From positions 1 to 26,191 of IMG/VR virus record IMGVR_UViG_3300032073_000209: a stretch of DNA of 26,191 nt. One strand, written 5' to 3'. The position numbers and the translations under genes were made by a program. Each line of letters begins with the position of its first letter. Position 1 is the stretch's first letter. Shown in pieces: positions 1,700 through 26,018 of the stretch. Below the pieces are notes generated by a model. That model did no database searches and had not been told where the DNA came from. It saw only the letters and a list, made by a program, of their open reading frames with translations. This stretch comes from a virus.

Positions 1700-2920
1700 T
1701 CAGTCGAAGAACCAGTCTTCATCTTCTTCTACGACATCAATCTGCTCAGGGCTTCCGCCACGATTGTTCACGACAAACAAGCCTGACACATTGATACTTG
1801 TTGGGTTCTCAGCAGATTGAGAAGTTCTACCCACTACGATTATCGAAGAACCGATACCGAAGTTGATGTCTACATTCTCAGGAATCCAGCAGGTAGTCCC
1901 ACTGAAACCATCTCCATCCCAATCAATCTCTGTGTTGAAGTCATCCAAGTTAACAATCCTGTTACCATTACTGGTTGCTCTCATGTTGATACTTGTGACA
2001 CTACCATCAGTAAAGACGAATCTATCTGCATAGTTCTTGCTCATAGCAGAAGCATGGTATCTATCAATGTCAACCAATGGGCTGTAATTAGATTCACAGA
2101 ACTCCATCAGAGTGTCTTGGATATCAATCTTAGATACATCTCTGTAAGTCTCAGAGTCGGTAGATAGGTCTGCATTGTATACCAATGAAGTTAGTGTAGT
2201 GTCAGTTCCACCGCTTACTGCACCTGCTCTGAAAGAGTTAGGTATGCAACTGAAGTGAACGAACTCAAACGTCTTTGGCTCAAAGTGGACACAGGATGTT
2301 CCTTTGTAGGAGAAATCCCACTTACCCATTTGTCCATCGACTTCACCAACGAATACACCGCTTCTTCGGTATTCTTCCTTTGGTAGTGGTTTACCGTAGT
2401 TCTTGTTCCAGTCACCTTCTCTTGTGTCTAGAGGCACAATGAATCTACCTGTGTCAACTTCTACGTTGTTATCAGGAAGTTTGCCCATGTGCTTAACAAT
2501 CTCTTCACCACTTCTCATCATCCTTGCTTCATAGCCATCACCATCTTCAGTGAAGATAGCAACTCTACCCAAGTTGTATGTCATTTCGCTGTCTCTCATA
2601 TATTCGTTAGTTAGCCTGTCTCTATTCATAGCACCCATATCTCTTGCTTCATTCATCGAGATGAAGAAGCCGAATGCATCCTTGAATAGACCGCCACTGT
2701 TGTTACTAGTGGTTCTTGGTGAATCTTGTCGCTTCATTGCTGCACGACTGTTCACATAGAATGCTTTCCAAAGACCCCTCGCTAGTTGGGGTTCTTCGGT
2801 TGCGTTGACGTTGTTCTTGGAACATATGTCCTCAAACCTCGCCATAGCATCCTCTTGGCTCATGCCAAGTATTTCTGCGGCTTTCTCAATATCATTTTTT
2901 ATTTCATCATTCATTTTCAT
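1700..2920 (-). CDS. Candidate single-stranded DNA-binding protein with acidic tail
   Basis: This 406-residue protein starts at an ATG preceded by GGAGG. The N-terminal 50 residues look helical (EKAAEILGMSQEDAMARFED). The middle is beta-rich with many aromatic residues. The C-terminal part has an OB-fold-like run (GSSIIVVGRTSQS then INVSGLFVVNN). The last residues are strongly acidic and end in aromatics (VVEEDEDWFFD), like the acidic tip through which SSBs recruit partners. It sits between RecA-like and clamp-loader genes, the usual place for an SSB in a viral replication module. No zinc finger of the archaeal RPA41 type is seen. The family was not recognised directly, so the SSB role is inference from tail, fold hints and neighbours. 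Confidence 0.5.
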   Translation of the reverse strand: MKMNDEIKNDIEKAAEILGMSQEDAMARFEDICSKNNVNATEEPQLARGLWKAFYVNSRAAMKRQDSPRTTSNNSGGLFKDAFGFFISMNEARDMGAMNRDRLTNEYMRDSEMTYNLGRVAIFTEDGDGYEARMMRSGEEIVKHMGKLPDNNVEVDTGRFIVPLDTREGDWNKNYGKPLPKEEYRRSGVFVGEVDGQMGKWDFSYKGTSCVHFEPKTFEFVHFSCIPNSFRAGAVSGGTDTTLTSLVYNADLSTDSETYRDVSKIDIQDTLMEFCESNYSPLVDIDRYHASAMSKNYADRFVFTDGSVTSINMRATSNGNRIVNLDDFNTEIDWDGDGFSGTTCWIPENVDINFGIGSSIIVVGRTSQSAENPTSINVSGLFVVNNRGGSPEQIDVVEEDEDWFFD

Positions 2921-3161
2921 TTTCCTCCTTTGTTTTCATTTTCTTTCTTTCGTGTTTTATTTCCACTAATCCTTCTGTCAGCATGACTACGCCACACAAT
3001 ATCCAAAAGACATTGGAATCTACGCTGATGTAATCTAGCGTGTTTAGTATAGGCAGTACAATCAGCAATGCACCGCCTAACGCTATTATCTCATACCGAA
3101 GTAGTAGATGTTTGATATCTTCAATATCCACTACGCCGTCTTTGTTTAAATCCATTTTCAT
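2907..3161 (-). CDS. Small membrane protein with an EF-hand-like calcium loop
   Basis: The 84-residue product opens with DLNKDGVVDIED, residues 4-15. This matches a canonical dockerin/EF-hand loop (D-x-N-x-D-G-x-V-D-x-x-D). Two hydrophobic stretches follow, about residues 27-41 (IIALGGALLIVLPIL) and 52-67 (VFWILCGVVMLTEGLV), and then a highly charged tail (KHERKKMKTKEENENE). The likely topology is two membrane passes with both ends on the same side. The start ATG follows GAGGTATAAAT. The gene overlaps the SSB-like gene by 14 nt. Its function is unknown; calcium sensing or membrane anchoring of viral complexes would fit but is not shown. Confidence 0.7.
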   Translation of the reverse strand: MKMDLNKDGVVDIEDIKHLLLRYEIIALGGALLIVLPILNTLDYISVDSNVFWILCGVVMLTEGLVEIKHERKKMKTKEENENE

Positions 3162-3175
3162 ATTTATACCTCATT

Positions 3176-3253
3176 TCAAAATCTCCTTTTAGGTGAGTCT
3201 AACCATCTTAATAATTGTCTTAATACTACTATACCTATCAGGAATTCAACCAT
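3176..3253 (-). CDS. 25-aa hydrophobic micro-protein
   Basis: The ATG overlaps the TGA of the RFC small-subunit gene (TGATG). The frame then fills the gap exactly up to the ribosome-binding site of the next gene. The peptide begins MVEFLIGIVVLRQLLRWL and ends in a basic tail (SPKRRF). It is thus a short hydrophobic or amphipathic helix with positive charges at the end. Stop-start overlap of this kind is the rule for real genes in this operon. It is too short for homology-based naming. A membrane-active or protein-binding peptide is possible. Confidence 0.5.
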   Translation of the reverse strand: MVEFLIGIVVLRQLLRWLDSPKRRF

Positions 3254-4170
3254 CAAATCATCTGTCCTATCATCCAAGATGCTAGTAATTTTGGAGTCAT
3301 ACTACTACTTCTCCATTCTGCCTCTCCGACAACCCTAAGCAATTTGAACTTCTTGGTTGCTGGCATGTCTGTCTTGATGACTACATCATGCAAATTAATG
3401 CATATAGTCTTCATGTCTACTGCTTCATATAACAAATCATGCACCTTACCTAAAGAATTTTCATAGTTATTTTCATCAATCATTTGTAATATTTCAGTAT
3501 AGGGTTCTTGATTTTTGTTTATCTGATTCAATATGGAGGACTTACTGTAAGTTACAGCCTGAAGTTCAGTAAGCCCCCGCCTCATGTCTCCATGTAGTGA
3601 CTCTATGAAGATTTCTAAGTCATCACTAGAAATATGGCTTATTCCTTCCTTTACTAAAATATCTGATAGTAACTTATGCATGGTTCTATCTTGTAATCTA
3701 CTGAATCTGTAATTCGCACACCTTGATTGAAGGGGATGTATTATCCTGAATCTATCATTACATGTGATAATGAATCTGACATTCTCAGCATATCTCTCCA
3801 TAATTCTCTTCAGTGCGTTCTGAGCATCTTTCGTCATACCATCCATCTCATCAAGAAGTATAATCTTGAAAGGAGCATCCCCTATCTTTCTAGTGGAAGC
3901 AATCTCTTTGATTTGGTTTCTGACTGTCTCTAGTCTTCTATCGTCTGATGCATTGATTTCAAAGAAGTTGTTGTCTACATCTTCCTTGAGTATGTCATTC
4001 GATAACGCAATACCAGCAGCAGTTTTACCCACACCTGCTATTCCATAGAGTAGAACATTAGGCATGTTGCCCTGTTCTACCCAACTCTCTGCATCAATTG
4101 TGAAATTGTATTGTCCTACAACCTCACTAAGTTTCTTTGGTCTATATTTTTCTGTCCATAACATTTTCAT
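3253..4170 (-). CDS. rfcS: Replication factor C small subunit (clamp loader ATPase)
   Basis: The 305-residue protein has the full AAA+ signature of RFC small subunits. It starts WTEKYRPKKLSEVVGQ, followed by Walker A GIAGVGKT at 43-50, Walker B ILLDEMD at 104-110, sensor-1 region FIITCND, and the arginine-finger motif SRC at 149-151. The length is slightly short of the usual 320-330 of archaeal homologues. With a large subunit it opens the sliding clamp with ATP and loads it on primer-template DNA. The ATG follows GAGGA directly. The preceding gene ends 9 nt upstream and encodes the likely large-subunit counterpart. Confidence 0.95.
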   Translation of the reverse strand: MKMLWTEKYRPKKLSEVVGQYNFTIDAESWVEQGNMPNVLLYGIAGVGKTAAGIALSNDILKEDVDNNFFEINASDDRRLETVRNQIKEIASTRKIGDAPFKIILLDEMDGMTKDAQNALKRIMERYAENVRFIITCNDRFRIIHPLQSRCANYRFSRLQDRTMHKLLSDILVKEGISHISSDDLEIFIESLHGDMRRGLTELQAVTYSKSSILNQINKNQEPYTEILQMIDENNYENSLGKVHDLLYEAVDMKTICINLHDVVIKTDMPATKKFKLLRVVGEAEWRSSSMTPKLLASWMIGQMI

Positions 4171-4179
4171 TCCTCATTT

Positions 4180-5016
4180 TTAATCTAGCCACTTTGACAG
4201 TGTGGCAACTGGTTGAACCGGAGTTCGTTTCGTTTGTCTATCTTTACGGAGTTTAAGTATTCTCAAATCCGTGGTTGAGAGCGTCTTTCTACAATACTCC
4301 TTGAAATCATTGTTTTTCAATAAGTCTTTCAAAAGGTATTTCTGAAAAGGCCGCATTTTTAACTTCCTCAAAATTTTCGGTATTGAGGAATATGCCTTTC
4401 TTTGTGGTGGTGTCATCTTTCGATGCATTCTACCATCATGAGCATAAGCCAACATCTCGTAGAAGTAGGCCTTGCTCCATCTTCTTTTCACTTTAGCATC
4501 TAAGAACATCAGTTTGTTCGGATGCAAGTTAGGTGCTAACCAAGATATGAACTGGATATCAGCAGGTTCGCTAATCATCAGTTGATTCTTCACAACCTCT
4601 CTATCGGGATTTCTCAAGTAGTCTCCAACCATAGTAAAGATATCAACGTCATAGTTGTAAGGTTCATCAGAACGTGGAGCAATCTCTTTGATTTCATCAA
4701 ACAGAGATTTCTTTGTTGCTCTATTCAACTTGCACATACCAAACAGTTTCTTGGGTACATCCTTCTGATTGATTGAAGTTAGTATTACCTGACCTTTATA
4801 CTCAAGGATAGTCTTCCTGATTGCTTCTACATTTGGCTTGTAGTTACATTCTCTGATAATTATTCCTCTGTTAGCAGGTATAGAGTGATTATCTTCTATA
4901 TCATATTCGTTGGCATACATTATGATGGGGTCTTCTGAGACGAGTTTTCTCGCCTTCTCCATCTTGTCTGTTCCATCTTTTCCTACAACTATTATTGTTC
5001 TATTCTGATTCTTCAT
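4180..5016 (-). CDS. Clamp-loader large-subunit-like protein with degenerate P-loop and C-terminal PIP-like motif
   Basis: The N-terminus has a strand plus glycine loop (TIIVVGKDGTDKMEKAR) where a Walker A would be, but not a complete GKS/T, so ATP binding looks lost. The later part recalls the archaeal RFC-L collar: ADIQFISWLAPNL, then a helix with RRWSKAYFYEMLAYAHDG, then a PP motif and basic helices (MTPPQRKAYSSIPKILRKL). The last residues, PVATLSKWLD, resemble the archaeal PIP box at the RFC-L C-terminus. At about 280 residues it is much shorter than RFC-L (around 480), closer to a non-catalytic partner like T4 gp62. The start is either 5016 (MKNQNRT) or 5031. It lies next to rfcS. The assignment is by pattern and context. 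Confidence 0.6.
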   Translation of the reverse strand: MKNQNRTIIVVGKDGTDKMEKARKLVSEDPIIMYANEYDIEDNHSIPANRGIIIRECNYKPNVEAIRKTILEYKGQVILTSINQKDVPKKLFGMCKLNRATKKSLFDEIKEIAPRSDEPYNYDVDIFTMVGDYLRNPDREVVKNQLMISEPADIQFISWLAPNLHPNKLMFLDAKVKRRWSKAYFYEMLAYAHDGRMHRKMTPPQRKAYSSIPKILRKLKMRPFQKYLLKDLLKNNDFKEYCRKTLSTTDLRILKLRKDRQTKRTPVQPVATLSKWLD

Positions 5017-20280: not shown

Positions 20281-20330
20281 ATTATTCTCTCCGAGTTGTC
20301 TGAACTTCTTCATGTTTTTTGTTTTTCACT

Positions 20331-20352
20331 ATTTTACACCACTATGTAAAAT
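20331..20352. repeat. Inverted repeat ATTTTACA-N6-TGTAAAAT
   Basis: The perfect 8-bp arms lie 51 nt upstream of the NMAD1-like start codon, so this may be an operator or may include the minus-strand promoter. Confidence 0.55.
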
Positions 20353-20631
20353 TGAATATCTTCGCAGTACAACGTTTTCATTTGGTTTTTCAATTTTTCA
20401 TATTTTTCACCCCCTCAAGAGAGAAGGAGTAGTAGTAGATATGATGACATATAGTAGTAGTATAAGATAGTGAAATATATGAAATATTAAAATAATAATT
20501 AAAATCATTGATTTTATACCCTTTAGACTACTTTTTGATTTTTCACCCTGACTGAAAAATACTGAAAAATACAATTTCAATCAGAAAAAGGTGAACAACT
20601 ATCATATTACATATGAGAAATATCACATGTC

Positions 20632-20647
20632 ATATGTATATACATAT
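20632..20647. repeat. Perfect 16-bp AT-rich palindrome
   Basis: ATATGTATATACATAT equals its own reverse complement. It sits in a longer CATATG/ATATATG-rich stretch (20611-20668). It may be a DNA-unwinding element or protein site. Confidence 0.55.
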
Positions 20648-20890
20648 ATGATATATGTTATACATATAGGAGACCGATTCTAGAACCAATCGAGGGTCAT
20701 CTGATTGAGGTAGATAGAAATAACTACCAAAGACAACCGATTAGTTAAGAATAGTCTAAGAAACGCTTGTGCAAAAAGGAGTAGAACTCCCAATATCACA
20801 ACACTGTTCAGCGCACCCATATATGTGTCTCAACCCTATTAAAGAAATATCCACCCCTAGTGGTCGCCCCAAAACACCTGCGCCTCACTT

Positions 20891-20916
20891 CTTACCATAT
20901 GGTGTGACGCTTTGCT
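20891..20916 (+). repeat. Palindromic promoter element, copy 1
   Basis: The core is TTACCATATGGT with right arm GCTTTGCTGG. The left arm is degenerate. It lies upstream of the first rightward gene, with the core centre 54 nt before the ATG. Confidence 0.75.
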
Positions 20917-20952
20917 GGCATATCCTATCAATGGTTGAGAAACCCTACTGAC
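20917..20952 (+). promoter_or_regulatory. Conserved promoter-like segment after palindrome copy 1
   Basis: The segment contains TATCCTATCAATGGTTGAGA at about -34 to -15 from the ATG at 20953. The same order, CCTAT then (G/C)(T/C)TTGAG, recurs after copies 5 and 6. It is at the right place for an archaeal TATA/BRE of a leaderless transcript. Confidence 0.5.
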
Positions 20953-21348
20953 ATGCCACTAATAGTAGGAATAGAGAACGGAATAGAGAAAGGCTTCCAT
21001 GAAGTTGAGATACAGTTGGTTAACGGATTAGGATTTGGTCTGTTAGCACAGAATGCAGGTGTTGGAAGTATGAGTGTTAGATATGGGGGAGTGAAAATCA
21101 CCCCTGAAGAGTTCAGACGTAGAATGTTACTCTGCAACTTCGCTAACGAGATATACGACATGGGAAGGTTCTATGATACAATGACCCTTGAGTTCTGTCA
21201 GAGATTGAAGGATGCCGATTGGTCATGCAATGTCTCAACATACGACAAGAGGAAGTTTAACACGGAATACAAGAACTGGTTAGTTAGACTTCAGGAGTTG
21301 GAGTTCAGTGCTTTTGAGAGAAAGATGCAGGAAAGAGGTGAAGAATAA
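20953..21348 (+). CDS. Protein of unknown function, first gene of rightward block (131 aa)
   Basis: The start at 20953 (MPLIVGIENGIEKG) is chosen because it sits at the fixed distance from the palindrome and promoter segment; an upstream ATG lies inside the conserved segment. The N-terminal half is a beta sheet (FHEVEIQLVNGLGFGLLA, SMSVRYGGVKI). The second half is helical (EFRRRMLLCNFANEIYDMGRF). The end is acidic and leads directly into the next gene (1 nt apart). No family is recognised. Confidence 0.75.
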   Translation: MPLIVGIENGIEKGFHEVEIQLVNGLGFGLLAQNAGVGSMSVRYGGVKITPEEFRRRMLLCNFANEIYDMGRFYDTMTLEFCQRLKDADWSCNVSTYDKRKFNTEYKNWLVRLQELEFSAFERKMQERGEE

Positions 21349-21474
21349 ATGGAATACGATATGAATTGTGAAGGATGTAAGAAAGAAGTGATAATTACAG
21401 GTGCATACTTGGGTCTGATTGAGGATGCATGGTGTGAAGACTGTGGATGGGAAGGTGAGAATCTTGAAGATTGA
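21349..21474 (+). CDS. 41-aa zinc-ribbon mini-protein
   Basis: The ATG follows the previous stop directly (TAAATG), and AGAGGTGAAG lies upstream. The product opens MEYDMNCEGCKKEVII and has a second pair in WCEDCGWEG, a complete zinc ribbon. It ends one base before the next start codon. It is one of several mini-ribbons in the window. Confidence 0.7.
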   Translation: MEYDMNCEGCKKEVIITGAYLGLIEDAWCEDCGWEGENLED

Positions 21475-21475
21475 G

Positions 21476-21646
21476 ATGAAGACATGTGTTATCTGTGGAG
21501 AACCCATCGATATACACTACAAGGAAGATGGAACACCGTATTGGTCAGAAGGACATAATGCAGAACCAGTTGAAATTGGTAGGTGCTGTGATAAGTGTCA
21601 GAATGAGGTTGTCCTACCTGAGAGATTGAGGAGGGCTATGTCATGA
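21476..21646 (+). CDS. Phage-type zinc protein 'CVICGEPI ... GHNAEPV ... CCDKC'
   Basis: The 56-residue protein starts MKTCVICGEPIDIHY, followed by YWSEGHNAEPVEIGRCC and CDKCQNEVVLPERL. The C-x-x-C, GHNAxP and C-C-x-x-C pattern is shared with small proteins of unknown function in many marine phages. It probably binds one zinc ion. The start at 21476 is preferred over an upstream in-frame start because it abuts the preceding stop. It overlaps the next micro-gene. Confidence 0.75.
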   Translation: MKTCVICGEPIDIHYKEDGTPYWSEGHNAEPVEIGRCCDKCQNEVVLPERLRRAMS

Positions 21647-21705
21647 AACTGAAAATGAGGGTTGAAACTGATGAATACGTTTGGGAGTTGTGGGACAATG
21701 AGTAA
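21643..21705 (+). CDS. Possible 20-aa micro-protein
   Basis: The ATG overlaps the TGA of the zinc protein gene (TCATGA). The peptide is MKLKMRVETDEYVWELWDNE, and its stop overlaps the start of the next gene. Coupling at both ends is the main support; it may serve mainly to carry ribosomes to the next start. Confidence 0.45.
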   Translation: MKLKMRVETDEYVWELWDNE

Positions 21706-21970
21706 TTATCCCGATGGAATGACTTCTGCTGACCATGCCTACCTTGATGGATACAGTGGGTGTTTACACGAATCTACCAGTGTCGAGGATGTGAGAATGA
21801 GAGTTCGTATTCCTAAAGGAATGACAGGTGGGCAGATTATTGAACTACATGGGTTAGATATTGAAGCCTACTTCGTCTGCGACAAGTGCAATCTAGGTAA
21901 GTGGATACCAGTTGATGTTGACTCATACATTGAGGGGTTAGACTGTCAAGGTGAGGACTTAGAAGATTAA
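21698..21970 (+). CDS. Small cysteine-containing protein of unknown function (90 aa)
   Basis: The start at ATG 21698 (MSNYPDGMTSADHAYL) overlaps the stop of the 20-aa frame. A longer frame from 21662 is less likely. It has a CDKC pair near residue 66 and single cysteines near residues 22 and 83, which might form a zinc site. The central part has VRMRVRIPKGMTGGQIIEL. It ends just before a UUCG hairpin. No family is recognised. Confidence 0.7.
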   Translation: MSNYPDGMTSADHAYLDGYSGCLHESTSVEDVRMRVRIPKGMTGGQIIELHGLDIEAYFVCDKCNLGKWIPVDVDSYIEGLDCQGEDLED

Positions 21971-21975
21971 AACGC

Positions 21976-21989
21976 CACCCTTCGGGGTG
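21976..21989 (+). terminator. C(UUCG)G hairpin after the first rightward operon
   Basis: CACCC-TTCG-GGGTG forms a 5-bp GC-rich stem with an extra-stable tetraloop. It starts 6 nt after the stop of the preceding gene. No T-tract follows, so it may be an RNA 3'-end stabiliser rather than an archaeal terminator. Confidence 0.55.
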
Positions 21990-21997
21990 TGCATAAT

Positions 21998-22037
21998 AGC
22001 AAAGCAATGCCTACCATATGGTAAGATACTTTGTCAA
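21998..22037 (+). repeat. Palindromic promoter element, copy 2
   Basis: Left arm AGCAAAGC, core CTACCATATGGTAA, right arm ACTTTGTCAA. The centre is about 55 nt before the ATG at 22073. The segment between carries a weaker version of the shared CCT...GCTTG sequence. Confidence 0.75.
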
Positions 22038-22072
22038 CATTTACCTCATGATGCTTGGTGCGACCTCTTGTT

Positions 22073-22879
22073 ATGGAGATGTTATCTATACTAACACTGC
22101 TATTTGCAGTGATGCTTGCTGTTGAACGCCCAAAGGAAGGCTTTGGAGGTCTAATGCCAATCAGTGATACTGAAATCATGGCACAACACCTGAATGGTCT
22201 ATCTGATGATGAATTGTCTAGTGGAACTAGAATGCTGAATGAATTGAAGGCTCTTATTGAGCAGGAAAAGAGAATTAGAGCAGTTATTCCGCTTAAGGAA
22301 CATAATCAAAGGTGGATGGAGAAGAATGGTGAGTTTTATCAGCAACTCAAAGATGCTGTTGATGCTCATCTTGCTCTAAGGAGAAATATTGGTCTTTCGG
22401 ATTACGATGTTAATCGTGATAGGTACGGAGACCTTGAGATAGAGGGAGCAGATGATGAGACTGATGGGCATTTGGCTATGTTATCTGCATCATATGAAGA
22501 TATCATGAAAAAGGCTTCTTGGTTGAGGAATCGTGGCAGTAGATATGCCATCAAGCACTTCATGAAGACTGGTGAAAAGAAGTATTGGCCGACAGATTAC
22601 AAGAAAATGCTAGGAATAAAGGGGGATACTACTAGTTGCGAAATCTGTTATGAGAATGCCTTCTACCAATCTGACTATGAAGCATCTTGGCAGGAAATGC
22701 CGGGTGCGCCTGTTCAGCCAGCATACTACTATTACAGTTGTGCTTGCTGTGGAATTAGTACATCTAAGACAGGTAGCCAATCTGAGAACATCTGTGGTGT
22801 AGATATGGTCGGTCAGCCTCTTTATGCTAACATGACAACAGAAGAAGTAGCAAGAATGTCCGATGAATACGGATATTGA
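22073..22879 (+). CDS. Membrane-anchored or secreted protein with C-terminal cysteine cluster (268 aa)
   Basis: The N-terminus MEMLSILTLLFAVMLAVERP is a hydrophobic helix with few charges before it, so it is a signal anchor or signal peptide. The middle is helical and charged (DDELSSGTRMLNELKALIEQE, VIPLKEHNQRWMEKNGEFY). The last third has CEICYENAFY and YYYYSCACCG, which could form a zinc site. The start at ATG 22073 is at the fixed palindrome distance; TTG at 22055 is possible. It is followed by a GNRA hairpin. Function unknown. Confidence 0.7.
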   Translation: MEMLSILTLLFAVMLAVERPKEGFGGLMPISDTEIMAQHLNGLSDDELSSGTRMLNELKALIEQEKRIRAVIPLKEHNQRWMEKNGEFYQQLKDAVDAHLALRRNIGLSDYDVNRDRYGDLEIEGADDETDGHLAMLSASYEDIMKKASWLRNRGSRYAIKHFMKTGEKKYWPTDYKKMLGIKGDTTSCEICYENAFYQSDYEASWQEMPGAPVQPAYYYYSCACCGISTSKTGSQSENICGVDMVGQPLYANMTTEEVARMSDEYGY

Positions 22880-22887
22880 ACCTAACA

Positions 22888-22913
22888 GGTCGGGGGAGGA
22901 GACTCCCTCGGCC
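22888..22913 (+). terminator. 11-bp hairpin with GAGA (GNRA) loop
   Basis: GGTCGGGGGAG pairs with CTCCCTCGGCC (two G-U pairs) around the loop GAGA. It starts 8 nt after the gene's stop. It is the strongest of the intergenic hairpins and has no T-tract. Confidence 0.6.
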
Positions 22914-22927
22914 TCAAGGTCTACGCT

Positions 22928-22970
22928 CACAAAGTAAGACTTCAACCATATGGTAGGAGTGGCGACAGGC
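22928..22970 (+). repeat. Palindromic promoter element, copy 3 (degenerate)
   Basis: The left arm CACAAAGT and core AACCATATGGTAG are present. The right arm is lost (GGAGTGGCGACAGG). No open frame follows at the usual distance. Confidence 0.65.
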
Positions 22971-23058
22971 TACACACTAAATGATGTAATCACTCATCAT
23001 CATCATCGTCTGTTCTGTAAAGCACTGTTGTCACCTCCTAACCCCGACAGGTTGCACC

Positions 23059-23095
23059 AACAAGTTGACAACCATATGGTAAGTTACTTTGTCAG
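23059..23095 (+). repeat. Palindromic promoter element, copy 4
   Basis: The left arm is diverged (AACAAGTTG), with core ACCATATGGTAA and right arm ACTTTGTCAG. The conserved downstream segment CCCTGATAATGGTTAAGACA with ACGTATAG follows at 23100-23127. The next start codon is farther than usual (23169). Confidence 0.75.
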
Positions 23096-23168
23096 CGTAC
23101 CCTGATAATGGTTAAGACAACGTATAGTTGTCTGAAGAGGTCGGACAAACTAACAGGAAGTGAATAAA

Positions 23169-23675
23169 ATGGCAAAAAGTAATGGAAGCGAAACATGGAA
23201 CGATGACCAAGCCACTGTGCTTGAGTATATAGAGACGAATGAAGGTAAGTTGGACACTATGACAGTGTTACAACTTCAAGATTATCTGAGTGAGGGAAAC
23301 AGAACAATATCCCGCCAAAACTCGATAACAAAGGCAATCAAGATGCAGTTGGCGACAATATCAAGAGTTACCAACGGCGAAATTGTGAACCCAATGGCAT
23401 CTCAGCAAGGCAAAAGAGCATCATTTGCACTATCTGAGGCAGAACAAGCCGACAAGGACGAAACTGTGTATCATATCAGTGAAGTTGACGGTGGAATCAA
23501 TGTTTTCATCGGTGATAGAACTCTATCCCTGATGGACAAGTTCAACGGACGAACAAACGATGACGGAAGCAGGAAAACCTCATGGAATAGCCTAACAGAG
23601 ATGTTCATGGCGACCATCGGGGAGAGAACGGATGAGAACTTCAACAAAGAAGTAAAAACAGCGAGGTCTGCATAA
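23169..23675 (+). CDS. Protein of unknown function (168 aa)
   Basis: The ATG at 23169 is preceded by GGAAGTGA, so unlike its neighbours it probably has a leader. A GTG at 23160 is possible. The N-terminal half is helical (ATVLEYIETNEGKLDTMTVL, LQDYLSEGNRTISRQ). The central part has strands (ETVYHISEVDGGINVFIGDR). The C-terminal helix (SWNSLTEMFMATIGERTD) is amphipathic. No cysteines, no membrane segments. A DNA-binding helical domain is conceivable, but no family is recognised. Confidence 0.75.
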   Translation: MAKSNGSETWNDDQATVLEYIETNEGKLDTMTVLQLQDYLSEGNRTISRQNSITKAIKMQLATISRVTNGEIVNPMASQQGKRASFALSEAEQADKDETVYHISEVDGGINVFIGDRTLSLMDKFNGRTNDDGSRKTSWNSLTEMFMATIGERTDENFNKEVKTARSA

Positions 23676-23710
23676 GTTTGACCTCTTCTGACCTCTTCAG
23701 ACACCTAATT

Positions 23711-23726
23711 TGACCCTTCGGGGTCA
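23711..23726 (+). terminator. C(UUCG)G hairpin
   Basis: TGACCC-TTCG-GGGTCA is a perfect 6-bp stem with a UUCG loop, 35 nt after the preceding stop and 15 nt before palindrome copy 5. Confidence 0.55.
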
Positions 23727-23740
23727 TCTTGGGGTCGCCT

Positions 23741-23781
23741 CTGACAAAGTAATACTACCATATGGTAGTGTGCTTTGCTAC
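23741..23781 (+). repeat. Palindromic promoter element, copy 5
   Basis: Left arm CTGACAAAGT, core CTACCATATGGTAG, right arm GCTTTGCTAC. Both arms are present. The centre is 54 nt before the ATG at 23816. Confidence 0.8.
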
Positions 23782-23815
23782 AATATCCCTATTATGCTTG
23801 AGAAGACGTATTTAC
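23782..23815 (+). promoter_or_regulatory. Conserved promoter-like segment after palindrome copy 5
   Basis: ATATCCCTATTATGCTTGAG followed by AAGACGTAT. The CCCTAT(T)A block is about 28 nt before the ATG, consistent with a TATA-like element for a leaderless mRNA. Confidence 0.5.
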
Positions 23816-24013
23816 ATGGAATCGGAAGCGATACTAAACAAGCAATACCAGTATGAAGTAGAAGTCGGACATGCAAAACAGGGTTCACACCATGTTTTGA
23901 TACTCAAGTCCCTCAAGGTGCGTGATGACAATCTAGCAGATGTCATTGCTCAACTTAATGTAGCACTTGAGTCGGTGAAGGAAACATTCGTAGAAGGGGG
24001 TTTCACACAATGA
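23816..24013 (+). CDS. Small protein of unknown function (65 aa)
   Basis: The start at 23816 (MESEAILNKQYQ) is set by the fixed palindrome distance; the longer frame reads through the promoter segment. It has two strands (QYEVEVGHAKQGSHHVLILK) followed by a helix (LADVIAQLNVALESVKETF), a simple alpha/beta domain. The stop overlaps the next ATG, so the two proteins are made together. Confidence 0.7.
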   Translation: MESEAILNKQYQYEVEVGHAKQGSHHVLILKSLKVRDDNLADVIAQLNVALESVKETFVEGGFTQ

Positions 24014-24750
24014 GTCAGAAACACATCAGGACCGTAGAGATATCATACCCATTTGGGTTTAACAGTAGTGAGAAGGAGTTGCTCAACCTTGAGTTATTCA
24101 AGTACAACGTAATCAACGTGGATAAGTGGGATAATGAGATACCATCCTATCAGTCTGAGACTGTTGAAAGCACTATGTCTAAGTATACTGTCGTGATGTA
24201 TAACGGTGAGTTAGTATTTGACTACCGACAAGATGCTCAGTCAGTCATAAACCAACTAATAGCACAAGGGCTTGAAGTAAACGATGAGCCTGTTGTCAGT
24301 GAAGAGACTACTTCTAAGGTTGTTGAACCACAATGGCGTGGTGAGACAATTCTCTTCTTGGATACTGCACATCACTTGGGTTCTTACAGTCAGAAGTTCC
24401 ATATCGTATCAGAAAACGAAGTAGGTGAAGCAGTTGTCAAACTGTATGTGTCTTTCAAGGCATATTCATACTCTAGCACCTTGACTTTCACTGCTGAGTG
24501 GTCTACTGACAGAGTTCAGAAGTCTGATGTCATCGAACAGCACTTGGTTGATTTACCTACACCAATGATGGGTAAGATACAGTCAATCTTTGAGAGCATC
24601 TTCTACTCAGAGGCATTCGATAAGAAGGCAGAAGAACCAATTATCTCTTGTAAGTTCGATGTAGTGTCAAAGCACTCATCTGAATGTAAGCCCTCAGTCA
24701 TTGAGATGCTTAGAGAAGCAAAGAAACAAGCCTCTTCGGAAGAAGAGTGA
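24010..24750 (+). CDS. Protein of unknown function (246 aa)
   Basis: The ATG overlaps the TGA of the previous gene. The product is beta-rich with many aromatic residues: YTVVMYNGELVFDYR, ETILFLDTAHHLG, AVVKLYVSFKAYSYSSTLTF. A linker is rich in V, E and T (VVSEETTSKVVEP). The C-terminal helix is basic then acidic (VIEMLREAKKQASSEEE). It may consist of two similar beta domains. No family, cysteine cluster or membrane helix is seen. Confidence 0.75.
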   Translation: MSQKHIRTVEISYPFGFNSSEKELLNLELFKYNVINVDKWDNEIPSYQSETVESTMSKYTVVMYNGELVFDYRQDAQSVINQLIAQGLEVNDEPVVSEETTSKVVEPQWRGETILFLDTAHHLGSYSQKFHIVSENEVGEAVVKLYVSFKAYSYSSTLTFTAEWSTDRVQKSDVIEQHLVDLPTPMMGKIQSIFESIFYSEAFDKKAEEPIISCKFDVVSKHSSECKPSVIEMLREAKKQASSEEE

Positions 24751-24764
24751 ACATAACCGTTCCT

Positions 24765-24785
24765 GAGCAGGAAGTAAAACTGCTC
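24765..24785 (+). terminator. Hairpin GAGCAG/CTGCTC
   Basis: A perfect 6-bp stem with a 9-nt loop, 14 nt after the preceding stop. Confidence 0.5.
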
Positions 24786-24844
24786 ATTCACACTCCACCC
24801 CTTAAGGGAACAATTGGGGATGATGGACAAACAGTAAGTTCGAC

Positions 24845-24907
24845 ATGCGATTATGTGCAGCAGCGTTATTAGACTTAGATGAAGCCGGAATATACTCTAA
24901 GCAATGA
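24845..24907 (+). CDS. Possible 20-aa micro-protein
   Basis: In a 300-bp gap, the frame MRLCAAALLDLDEAGIYSKQ is protein-like, but it has no clear ribosome-binding site and no palindrome upstream. It could be the remnant of a lost gene. Confidence 0.25.
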   Translation: MRLCAAALLDLDEAGIYSKQ

Positions 24908-24947
24908 ACCGGGTATGAATCCTTAACCATGCAACTACTGTCACTGT

Positions 24948-24966
24948 CCTGACTCCTCAGTTCAGG
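24948..24966 (+). terminator. Weak hairpin CCTGA/TCAGG before palindrome copy 6
   Basis: A 5-bp stem with a 9-nt loop, 6 nt before the palindrome. It holds the usual position of the intergenic hairpins but is weaker. Confidence 0.4.
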
Positions 24967-24972
24967 GTCAGA

Positions 24973-25012
24973 GCAACAAAGTGCCTTACCATATGGTAAG
25001 CAACTTTGTCAG
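24973..25012 (+). repeat. Palindromic promoter element, copy 6 (best copy)
   Basis: ACAAAGT-N3-TTACCATATGGTAA-N3-ACTTTGT is a perfect interrupted palindrome of 34 bp, followed by CAG. The centre is about 58 nt before the ATG at 25050. Confidence 0.85.
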
Positions 25013-25049
25013 ACGACCCTATACAATCCTTGAGGGAACGTATAGGTAC
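25013..25049 (+). promoter_or_regulatory. Conserved promoter-like segment after palindrome copy 6
   Basis: ACCCTATACAATCCTTGAGG followed by GAACGTATAGG. The CCCTATACA block lies about 34 to 26 nt before the ATG. Confidence 0.5.
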
Positions 25050-25313
25050 ATGACAAGAATACAACACATGAGAACAAAAGGCGGGAACGATGCAAAGAAT
25101 CAATTTGAAGTCTTTGATGATGAAGGTAAGCACTTTCTTTCATATAATTCAAAGATAGCCACGATAAAAGGCGATGAAGTAACACTATACGAGCCATATT
25201 GGAACATGTATAGTCAAACGACTAATTATTATCTTCTTCAGTTCCTGAACGAGTCTTCAATTCAAGACATTAGGGAAAAAGTGGCCGGAGGTGAATTCAA
25301 TGTTGTATGCTAG
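25050..25313 (+). CDS. Small phage-type protein with 'SYNSKIA ... WNMYSQTT' motif (87 aa)
   Basis: The start at 25050 (MTRIQHMRTKGGND) is set by the palindrome distance. The core, HFLSYNSKIATIKGDEVTLY then PYWNMYSQTTNYYLLQFLNE, follows a pattern common in small proteins of marine and other phages: S-Y-x-S/T-x-I-A, then W-x-x-S-x-T-T-x-x-Y-x-x-x-F-L. Two or three strands are followed by a helix. The function is unknown in all members I know. It ends IREKVAGGEFNVVC. Confidence 0.75.
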   Translation: MTRIQHMRTKGGNDAKNQFEVFDDEGKHFLSYNSKIATIKGDEVTLYEPYWNMYSQTTNYYLLQFLNESSIQDIREKVAGGEFNVVC

Positions 25314-25426
25314 CGATGACGATGACGATTGTTAAACTGAAATTTTAACTCGATGGCTCAAATATGAAAGAATGACCTAAACAAACCGAAATTATGCGTT
25401 AAGGTTGATTATTTGAGTTAAGATAT

Positions 25427-25468
25427 GAAGGGGGGAAGCCCGACAGATAGAAAACACTTCCCTCCTTC
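25427..25468 (+). terminator. 12-bp purine/pyrimidine hairpin before palindrome copy 7
   Basis: GAAGGGGGGAAG pairs with CTTCCCTCCTTC (one G-U pair) around an 18-nt loop. It stands 17 nt before copy 7, the usual hairpin position. Confidence 0.55.
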
Positions 25469-25485
25469 TACAATCGAGGTAAACG

Positions 25486-25526
25486 TAGACAAAGTTAGTT
25501 ACCATATGGTAGTGAAACTTTGTCAG
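25486..25526 (+). repeat. Palindromic promoter element, copy 7
   Basis: Left arm TAGACAAAGTTAG, core TTACCATATGGTAG, right arm AACTTTGTCAG. The conserved segment ACCTCAATATGGTTGAGACA with GTTATAGG follows at 25530-25557. No gene starts at the expected distance. Confidence 0.8.
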
Positions 25527-25769
25527 GATACCTCAATATGGTTGAGACAGGTTATAGGTGTTGAGCAGTACACTCAGCATGTGATGACTGAATAATGCCG
25601 TTATTAGGGCATAAGGTACTACAAGTGACTCTGTGGTGGAGTAGCGAGTCGGTGTGATAAAGCATTGGCAGTACAATGAGGGTAACTCCTTACTTGTAGG
25701 TATAATCGGGTCAATTCGGAAACGGAAAAACTGATACCCATTGATTATTGGAAGACGCTAGAAATAGAG
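25527..25769 (+). other. Possible non-coding transcript or leader downstream of palindrome copy 7
   Basis: A good promoter-like segment is followed by about 200 bp without an ORF above 20 codons. Short stems occur (ACTC-TGTGGTG-GAGT near 25628). It may encode a structured RNA or a leader for the micro-ORF at 25770. Confidence 0.35.
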
Positions 25770-25844
25770 ATGAATCCTCACACTATACACCTCATCGCAG
25801 GGTTGAGCAAGTCGGAAAGCACTATGGAAGCGTTAGGTTACTAG
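25770..25844 (+). CDS. Possible 24-aa micro-protein
   Basis: The frame MNPHTIHLIAGLSKSESTM ends EALGY at a TAG. The same frame is open and protein-like for about 28 codons upstream (including PIDYWKTLEIE) but lacks an ATG, GTG or TTG. It may be a degraded gene or use a rare start. Two hairpins follow directly. Confidence 0.3.
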   Translation: MNPHTIHLIAGLSKSESTMEALGY

Positions 25845-25852
25845 GTATAGAG

Positions 25853-25894
25853 CATCCAAATGGATGATACTCAGAAATACCCTCCCAATGGGAG
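25853..25894 (+). terminator. Two small hairpins after the micro-ORF
   Basis: CATCC-AAAT-GGATG (25853-25866) and CTCCC-AAT-GGGAG (25882-25894) lie between the micro-ORF stop and palindrome copy 8. Confidence 0.45.
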
Positions 25895-25944
25895 ACCGTG
25901 AGAGTTCTTATCCTTGATATGCTCCCCTGCCTCTGAGGTAGCCT

Positions 25945-25967
25945 TAGACAAAGTTAGTTACCATATG
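25945..25967 (+). repeat. Palindromic promoter element, copy 8 (left half only)
   Basis: The left arm and core up to CATATG are identical to copy 7 over about 22 bp. The right half is replaced by the arm of a hairpin terminator. Confidence 0.7.
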
Positions 25968-26018
25968 ATTGTAGATTAATTTTCTACAACCATATGCAAA
26001 TTTTTTTTGGCTTTTTTT
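25962..26018 (+). terminator. Hairpin plus double T-tract terminator closing the rightward block
   Basis: The 14-bp stem CATATGATTGTAGA / TCTACAACCATATG (one mismatch) has a 7-nt loop. Two T-runs follow, eight T at 26001-26008 and seven T at 26012-26018. T-tracts are the known archaeal termination signal, so this should end plus-strand transcription. Confidence 0.7.

Follow-up and report, generated by a model that had tools for sequence, protein, structure and literature searches.

A probable array of mobile, promoter-carrying cassettes joined at a palindromic core in a magrovirus genome

The promoter early stem-loops (PeSLs) of T4-like phages (Arbiol 2010; Comeau 2014; as described in PMC3950731 and PMC4503421) and a TATA/inverted-repeat motif of Halogranum tailed virus 1 (HGTV-1), earlier likened to PeSLs, are the closest described systems to the locus reported here. 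What PeSLs, so far as these sources describe them, have in common with this locus is a pairing of promoter and stem-loop that recurs between the small genes of a hypervariable block and is linked to modular shuffling. The locus lies in a 26.2-kb virus record (IMG/VR IMGVR_UViG_3300032073_000209, 26,191 nt), analyzed over its whole length and hereafter called the window, in which seven full or half CATATG-centered palindromes and one degenerate terminal copy occupy one 5-kb block. The block is probably an array of mobile cassettes, most of them with a promoter of their own, joined head to tail at the palindrome, and the repeats appear to serve both in the exchange of genes and in switching them on. 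This reading draws on the asymmetry of the arms at array ends, the precise presence or absence of units, their inversion, the spacing of the TATA elements and covarying core-side stem-loops, all of them read from the sequence.

The window encodes an RFC-like clamp-loader subunit, an ATP-dependent DNA ligase, a B12-type ribonucleotide reductase and a TFB zinc ribbon. Because this content agrees with the genes that the profile of the International Committee on Taxonomy of Viruses (ICTV; PMC10768690) gives for magroviruses (order Magrovirales), the virus was assigned by gene content as a magrovirus, a tailed virus of marine archaea. No DNA similarity to phages was detected for the window. Poseidoniales, the hosts of magroviruses, count among the most abundant surface-ocean archaea; to our knowledge, no magrovirus is in culture. 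The comparison set consisted of 40 related IMG/VR arrays, 41 whole records were scanned for core copies, and a search for further relatives with TFB as bait returned one locus only. No description of the array system was found in the open-access literature, subscription papers being outside the search.

A position weight matrix built from the window copies placed centers at 20898, 22017, 22949, 23075, 23761, 24992, 25505 and 25964; the left block had no comparable site, in agreement with an earlier note on this sequence that had described eight copies in the right block only. Searching with TACCATATGGTA at up to three mismatches gave 26 matches against 11.4 expected, and every copy with 0–1 mismatches lay at a position reported in that note. 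The exact full palindrome with both arms was not matched anywhere in the window, as its spacers differ between copies. A second conserved stretch, which the note had described behind five copies and as weaker in the one at 21998, was confirmed; the four genes that the note had placed 54–58 nt from the center start at 55, 56, 55 and 58 nt (ATG at 20953, 22073, 23816 and 25050). Its picture of a roughly 40-bp, two-armed palindrome at each copy held for the repetition and failed for the equality of the copies: copy 1 has no left CAAAGT arm, the left arm of copy 4 is poor, and copies 3 and 8 lack both the right arm and the promoter. The note had put all copies in gaps between plus-strand genes; not every gap is of this kind, the 126-nt interval from copy 3 to copy 4 holding a minus-strand minigene. 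Copy 7 precedes an RNA resembling Rfam manA and no protein gene.

The arms are distributed unequally at the ends of arrays. In 16 arrays of well-supported orientation, the left arm was present in 0/16 first, 49/63 interior and 11/14 last copies (chance level, 2.5%), and the right arm in 16/16, 60/63 and 0/14, respectively. These counts indicate that the left arm is part of the preceding unit and the right arm part of the following one, and the ~40-bp palindrome thus appears to be the 3′ end of one cassette abutting the 5′ end of the next. Among plus-strand coding units of at least 200 nt, 116 of 142 had arms at both ends, and 41 of 44 units shorter than 200 nt had no arms.

The earlier note had proposed an operator regulon, in which the palindrome is the site of a dimeric regulator just upstream of the B recognition element (BRE) and TATA box and the whole rightward block is switched together. 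The fixed spacing to TATA and start, the perfect dyad of the core, the right arm carried by all promoters and the single block per genome are in line with this proposal, but it is unlikely. A dimeric operator would have both half-sites at every regulated promoter, and the left arm is absent from all 16 first copies despite their promoters and kept in 11 of the 14 last copies, which no promoter follows. Covariation of the arms was looked for, and the right-arm variants ACTTTCG, CTTTTGT and GCTTTGC were not matched by changes in the left arm. Moreover, promoterless units of 72–364 nt are bounded by cores, breaks between relatives fall exactly at the palindrome center, and cassettes are found in either orientation, which means that rightward direction is no intrinsic property of the block. 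Pairing of the outer arms as a hairpin was also considered and set aside, since compensatory changes were not general (one possible case, L010 7532).

Units that are cleanly present in one relative and absent from another span 72–464 nt. An 84-nt unit of L197 is missing in L188 (flanks 96/95%), a 464-nt coding cassette of L020 in L101 and a 72-nt unit of L193 in L187, and each break falls exactly between CCAT and ATGG. The 126-nt unit between copies 3 and 4 is inverted in L015, a relative that lacks the D268 unit and whose ribonucleotide reductase is 96% identical to that of the window. Opposite-strand coding units with starts 51–54 nt from the far core were found in L010, L181, L198 and L200, and several genomes hold, within a single array, two oppositely oriented paralogues of the E family, the hallmark protein of these arrays. 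Where only one side of a junction is homologous, identity drops just beyond the core on the other side. Between the near-identical L179 and L180, most units are 94–100% identical, one is 77% and one 91%.

Promoter statistics were obtained from 125 distinct units of the 40 arrays, with a start codon 46–75 nt from the center. TATA-type triplets (ATA, TAA or TAT) peaked at −26 to −24 of the ATG (41–56 units, against roughly 5–15 elsewhere), C was enriched at −30/−29 as in a BRE-like element, a second AT peak lay at −8/−7, and most starts fell 51–58 nt from the center. At L006 9751, the palindrome-to-TATA spacing is stretched and the TATA-to-ATG spacing is unchanged. The leaderless promoters that the earlier note had suggested are borne out by this pattern, and it is well supported that predicted leaderless archaeal promoters follow the copies. 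Two manA-like RNAs begin 54 and 55 nt from their centers, which supports the start-site geometry independently of the calling of open reading frames (ORFs). These promoters presumably fire, and the array genes may be expressed early.

On the core side, the nucleotides that follow the GGT of the core pair with the ones ahead of the CC upstream of TATA, and CTTTG forms the loop (stems such as GGTTAGA/TCTAACC, GGTCAGT/ACTGACC and GGTTTGA/TCAAACC). After promoters at least 60% identical had been removed, the summed length of GGTNNN/NNNACC stems was 275, against 214.8 ± 7.6 with shuffled partners (largest of 3000: 243), and stems of 6 or more were found in 18/61, against 5.0 when shuffled. The 3′ ends of coding cassettes had a similar excess (z 4.6) and small cassettes a weaker one (z 2.5–3.0), z-scores that overstate significance because the sequences are related. 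Stems that vary in sequence and conserve structure beside an invariant core make an integron-like reading worth testing. The covarying core-side stems, the manA-like RNA units and the tandem promoterless units of G026 would also suit RNA processing, in which CCAUAUGG and the arms are cleavage sites freeing mRNAs and small RNAs from long transcripts. This is highly improbable, given that no unit lies upstream of the first copy, that units invert and have their own TATA and that the outer arms do not covary.

The gapped pattern gave 78 stretches in viral contigs and one match in 257 Gb of cellular genomes. That match (L178) lies inside an ORF on a contig of a bacterial metagenome-assembled genome without an array and was rejected as chance, so that no credible copy was found in these cellular genomes. 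The pattern favors arrays whose copies have both arms; except for L012/L094 and L013, the first 17 arrays were found by other means. According to the listed match positions of the 41 whole records and the fetched arrays, each record has 2–13 perfect ACCATATGGT copies, which essentially form a single cluster of a few kilobases; in G044, one copy lies 4 kb from its cluster. G026 contains about 21 cores, many of which bound 117–364 nt units without a long ORF. The absence of copies from relatives at the same positions, which the earlier note had named as evidence that would refute it, was not observed: relatives carry copies between homologous genes.

Under the cassette reading, a coding cassette would typically begin ATGG-TNNN-ACTTTG-NNNACC-TATA, its leaderless mRNA or RNA gene would start about 55 nt into the cassette, and it would close with the inverted arm ACAAAGT-NNN-ACCAT. 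Neighboring cassettes would abut at the invariant palindrome CCATATGG, and small cassettes, having no arms or promoter, would have just this core in common. Gain, loss, replacement and inversion of cassettes, all breaking at the core, would produce a PeSL-like hypervariable block into which each coding module carries its own promoter.

Several points weigh against this reading. The clean empty/filled pairs are only three, the more divergent arrays are less securely oriented, and stem-loop covariation is weak in the window's own copies. Breaks of this kind could also arise by homologous or microhomology recombination over 8–13 bp. A site-specific enzyme is conjectural, since none of the three recombinase and transposase families searched for was found and HNH domains are rare: tyrosine recombinases (PF00589) were detected in 0/27 records (controls 14/14), serine recombinases (PF00239) in 0/27, Y1 transposases (PF01797) in 0/23 and HNH domains in 3/23, one of them over the cut-off. 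The ICTV profile of magroviruses likewise reports no identifiable integrase or transposase (PMC10768690). Cutting at CCATATGG by a viral nuclease would be expected to make the site rare outside the arrays; such avoidance was not seen, with approximately 17 sites there against 6 for the reversed control.

Shuffling of the PeSL type alone, in which the repeats are ordinary promoter and stem-loop sequences and genes are exchanged by homologous recombination between them with no dedicated enzyme, concerns the mechanism of exchange and is compatible with the cassette anatomy. The known recombinases not being found, the replication machinery that magroviruses themselves encode and the precedent in T4-like phages and HGTV-1 make it a serious possibility, though it falls somewhat short of an even chance, as arm-less cassettes are inserted precisely while sharing just 8–13 bp with their targets and both orientations occur. 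Exchange at the core may instead be enzyme-driven. A dedicated, integron-like site-specific recombination of cassettes, with the symmetric CCATATGG as crossover site, folded cassette ends and an enzyme from outside the known families, perhaps the E-family protein, is a more doubtful suggestion that we offer tentatively.

The E family is encoded in 37 of the 40 arrays, and it was found in 19/19 array records against 0/3 array-less records, with nearly all matches within or beside the array. No credible relative was found in Pfam, PDB sequences or folds, the fold matches having E values above 0.4. WD40 sequence matches were not taken as homology, as no matched stretch passes alone. The AlphaFold model is mostly helical and moderately confident (pLDDT 82.9, pTM 0.55). 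By its linkage to the arrays, the E-family protein is the best candidate for a core-binding protein and may bind the core; the virus-encoded DNA-binding protein envisaged in the earlier note is possible, with this array-restricted family as its candidate. E-family genes alone carry a leader (window 23131–23168 and relatives), with a Shine-Dalgarno-like GAGG in an apparent small hairpin (TTGTC..GACAA), which might serve autoregulation.

The features of the window array are listed in Table 1.

Table 1. Junctions, genes and other units of the window array.
Feature	Position	Strand	Description
Junction 1 (array start)	20894..20903		core ACCATATGGT; right arm GCTTTGC 20909-20915; left arm missing
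Core promoter, cassette 1	20919..20952	+	TATCCTATCAATGGTTGAG; predicted leaderless ATG at 20953
Gene A131	20953..21348	+	function not assigned; first of cassette 1
Small ORFs after A131	21476-21646 and 21698-21970		within cassette 1
Junction 2	22013..22022		core and both arms, left variant GCAAAGC
Gene D268	22073..22879	+	predicted leaderless; center 56 nt away
Junction 3	22945..22954		core and left arm only
Promoterless cassette, 126 nt	22949..23075	-	opposite orientation at two places in L015; boundaries exactly between CCAT and ATGG
Acidic minigene	22990..23025	-	peptide (M)LYRTDDDDDE; Shine-Dalgarno AGGAGGTGAC
Junction 4	23071..23080		core and right arm; left arm poor
Core promoter and ~38-nt leader of E-family gene	23096..23168	+
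E-family gene	23169..23675	+	hallmark protein of these arrays
Junction 5	23757..23766		core and both arms
Genes F65 (23816-24013) and G246 (24010-24750)	23816..24750	+	F65 predicted leaderless, 55 nt from center
Junction 6	24988..24997		core and both arms
Gene H87 (phrog_21575)	25050..25313	+	predicted leaderless, 58 nt from center
Second acidic minigene	25300..25335	+	MLYASDDDDDC; GGAGGTGA upstream; overlaps H87 end
Junction 7	25501..25510		core and both arms; promoter segment 25526-25558
manA-like RNA (RF01745)	25559..25786	+	54 nt from junction 7 center; unit without long ORF
Junction 8 (array end)	25960..25969		left arm and core only
Terminator-like array end	25962..26008	+	hairpin between two CATATG copies, then T8

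The manA-like RNA of the window covers all 192 positions of the RF01745 model in the alignment and scored 37.8 bits (E value, 4.8e-8), below the gathering score of 55.2 bits. A further manA-like RNA lies at L100 4228–4455, 55 nt from the center, and a weak third match at L198 2182–2451, in an inverted unit, is about 56 nt from the boundary by hand computation. The manA motif is known as a 5′UTR element of marine phages and gamma-proteobacteria; here, a manA-like RNA forms a stand-alone cassette without a long ORF in apparent archaeal viruses. Acidic minigenes of 6–11 codons (such as MLYRTDDDDDE, MFFDDDE and MLYASDDDDDC), each preceded by a strong Shine-Dalgarno sequence, are often housed in tiny cassettes. 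Roughly twelve distinct ones were counted, against 0 in shuffled arrays, and they also occur in L015, L097, L191, L192 and L201. In array orientation, L191 (G026) 2752–4592 is a run of ~120–180 nt units without a long ORF, several of them alike (TTTAATTACATTAAA). Between the divergent gene blocks of the window, positions 20313–20890 comprise about 580 nt of non-coding, AT-rich DNA with many ATATG/CATATG-like inverted repeats, possibly a replication origin.

Since such an array can be read from sequence, it offers a list of viral genes and RNAs that are presumably host-directed and whose starts can be predicted, and the turnover of magrovirus gene content becomes directly measurable. If a dedicated enzyme does swap the cassettes, that system of recombination would be new and might serve as a tool.

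Compared with integrons, the array likewise has small cassettes joined at a short conserved core, at which they are precisely inserted, beside stem-loops conserved in structure and variable in sequence. Unlike integrons, it has a fully palindromic core, both orientations and a promoter inside each coding cassette, and the tyrosine integrase IntI was not found (PF00589, 0/27 records). The Y1 transposase of IS200/IS605 or REP/RAYT elements and the recombinase gene of serine-recombinase invertible arrays were not found in the records searched either. As in PeSLs, a promoter is directly tied to an intergenic stem-loop, and genes of a hypervariable block are shuffled between relatives. The sigma-70 early promoter of T4-like phages is replaced by a TATA-type one in a TFB-encoding archaeal virus, and a role of the stem-loop as terminator of the upstream gene is argued against by the arrays, in which the stem-loop side of first copies has no upstream cassette and last copies lack that side. 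HGTV-1, on re-examination, has 21 palindrome copies in one block (128.7–142.1 kb) upstream of BRE/TATA-like promoters. It is likewise an archaeal tailed virus with palindrome, BRE/TATA and short genes in one block, and its palindrome (CTCCTCGTGGCACGAGGAG) is unrelated, the comparison covering palindrome copies, block and promoters. Unlike PeSLs as described in PMC3950731 and PMC4503421, the array has a palindromic core of 8–10 bp that does not vary, inverted arms at either end of a cassette, cassettes that are inverted or lack a promoter, and predicted archaeal TATA promoters. Beside the PeSL/HGTV-1 architecture, the fixed palindromic core, the arms at both ends, the inversion and the promoterless cassettes are additions.

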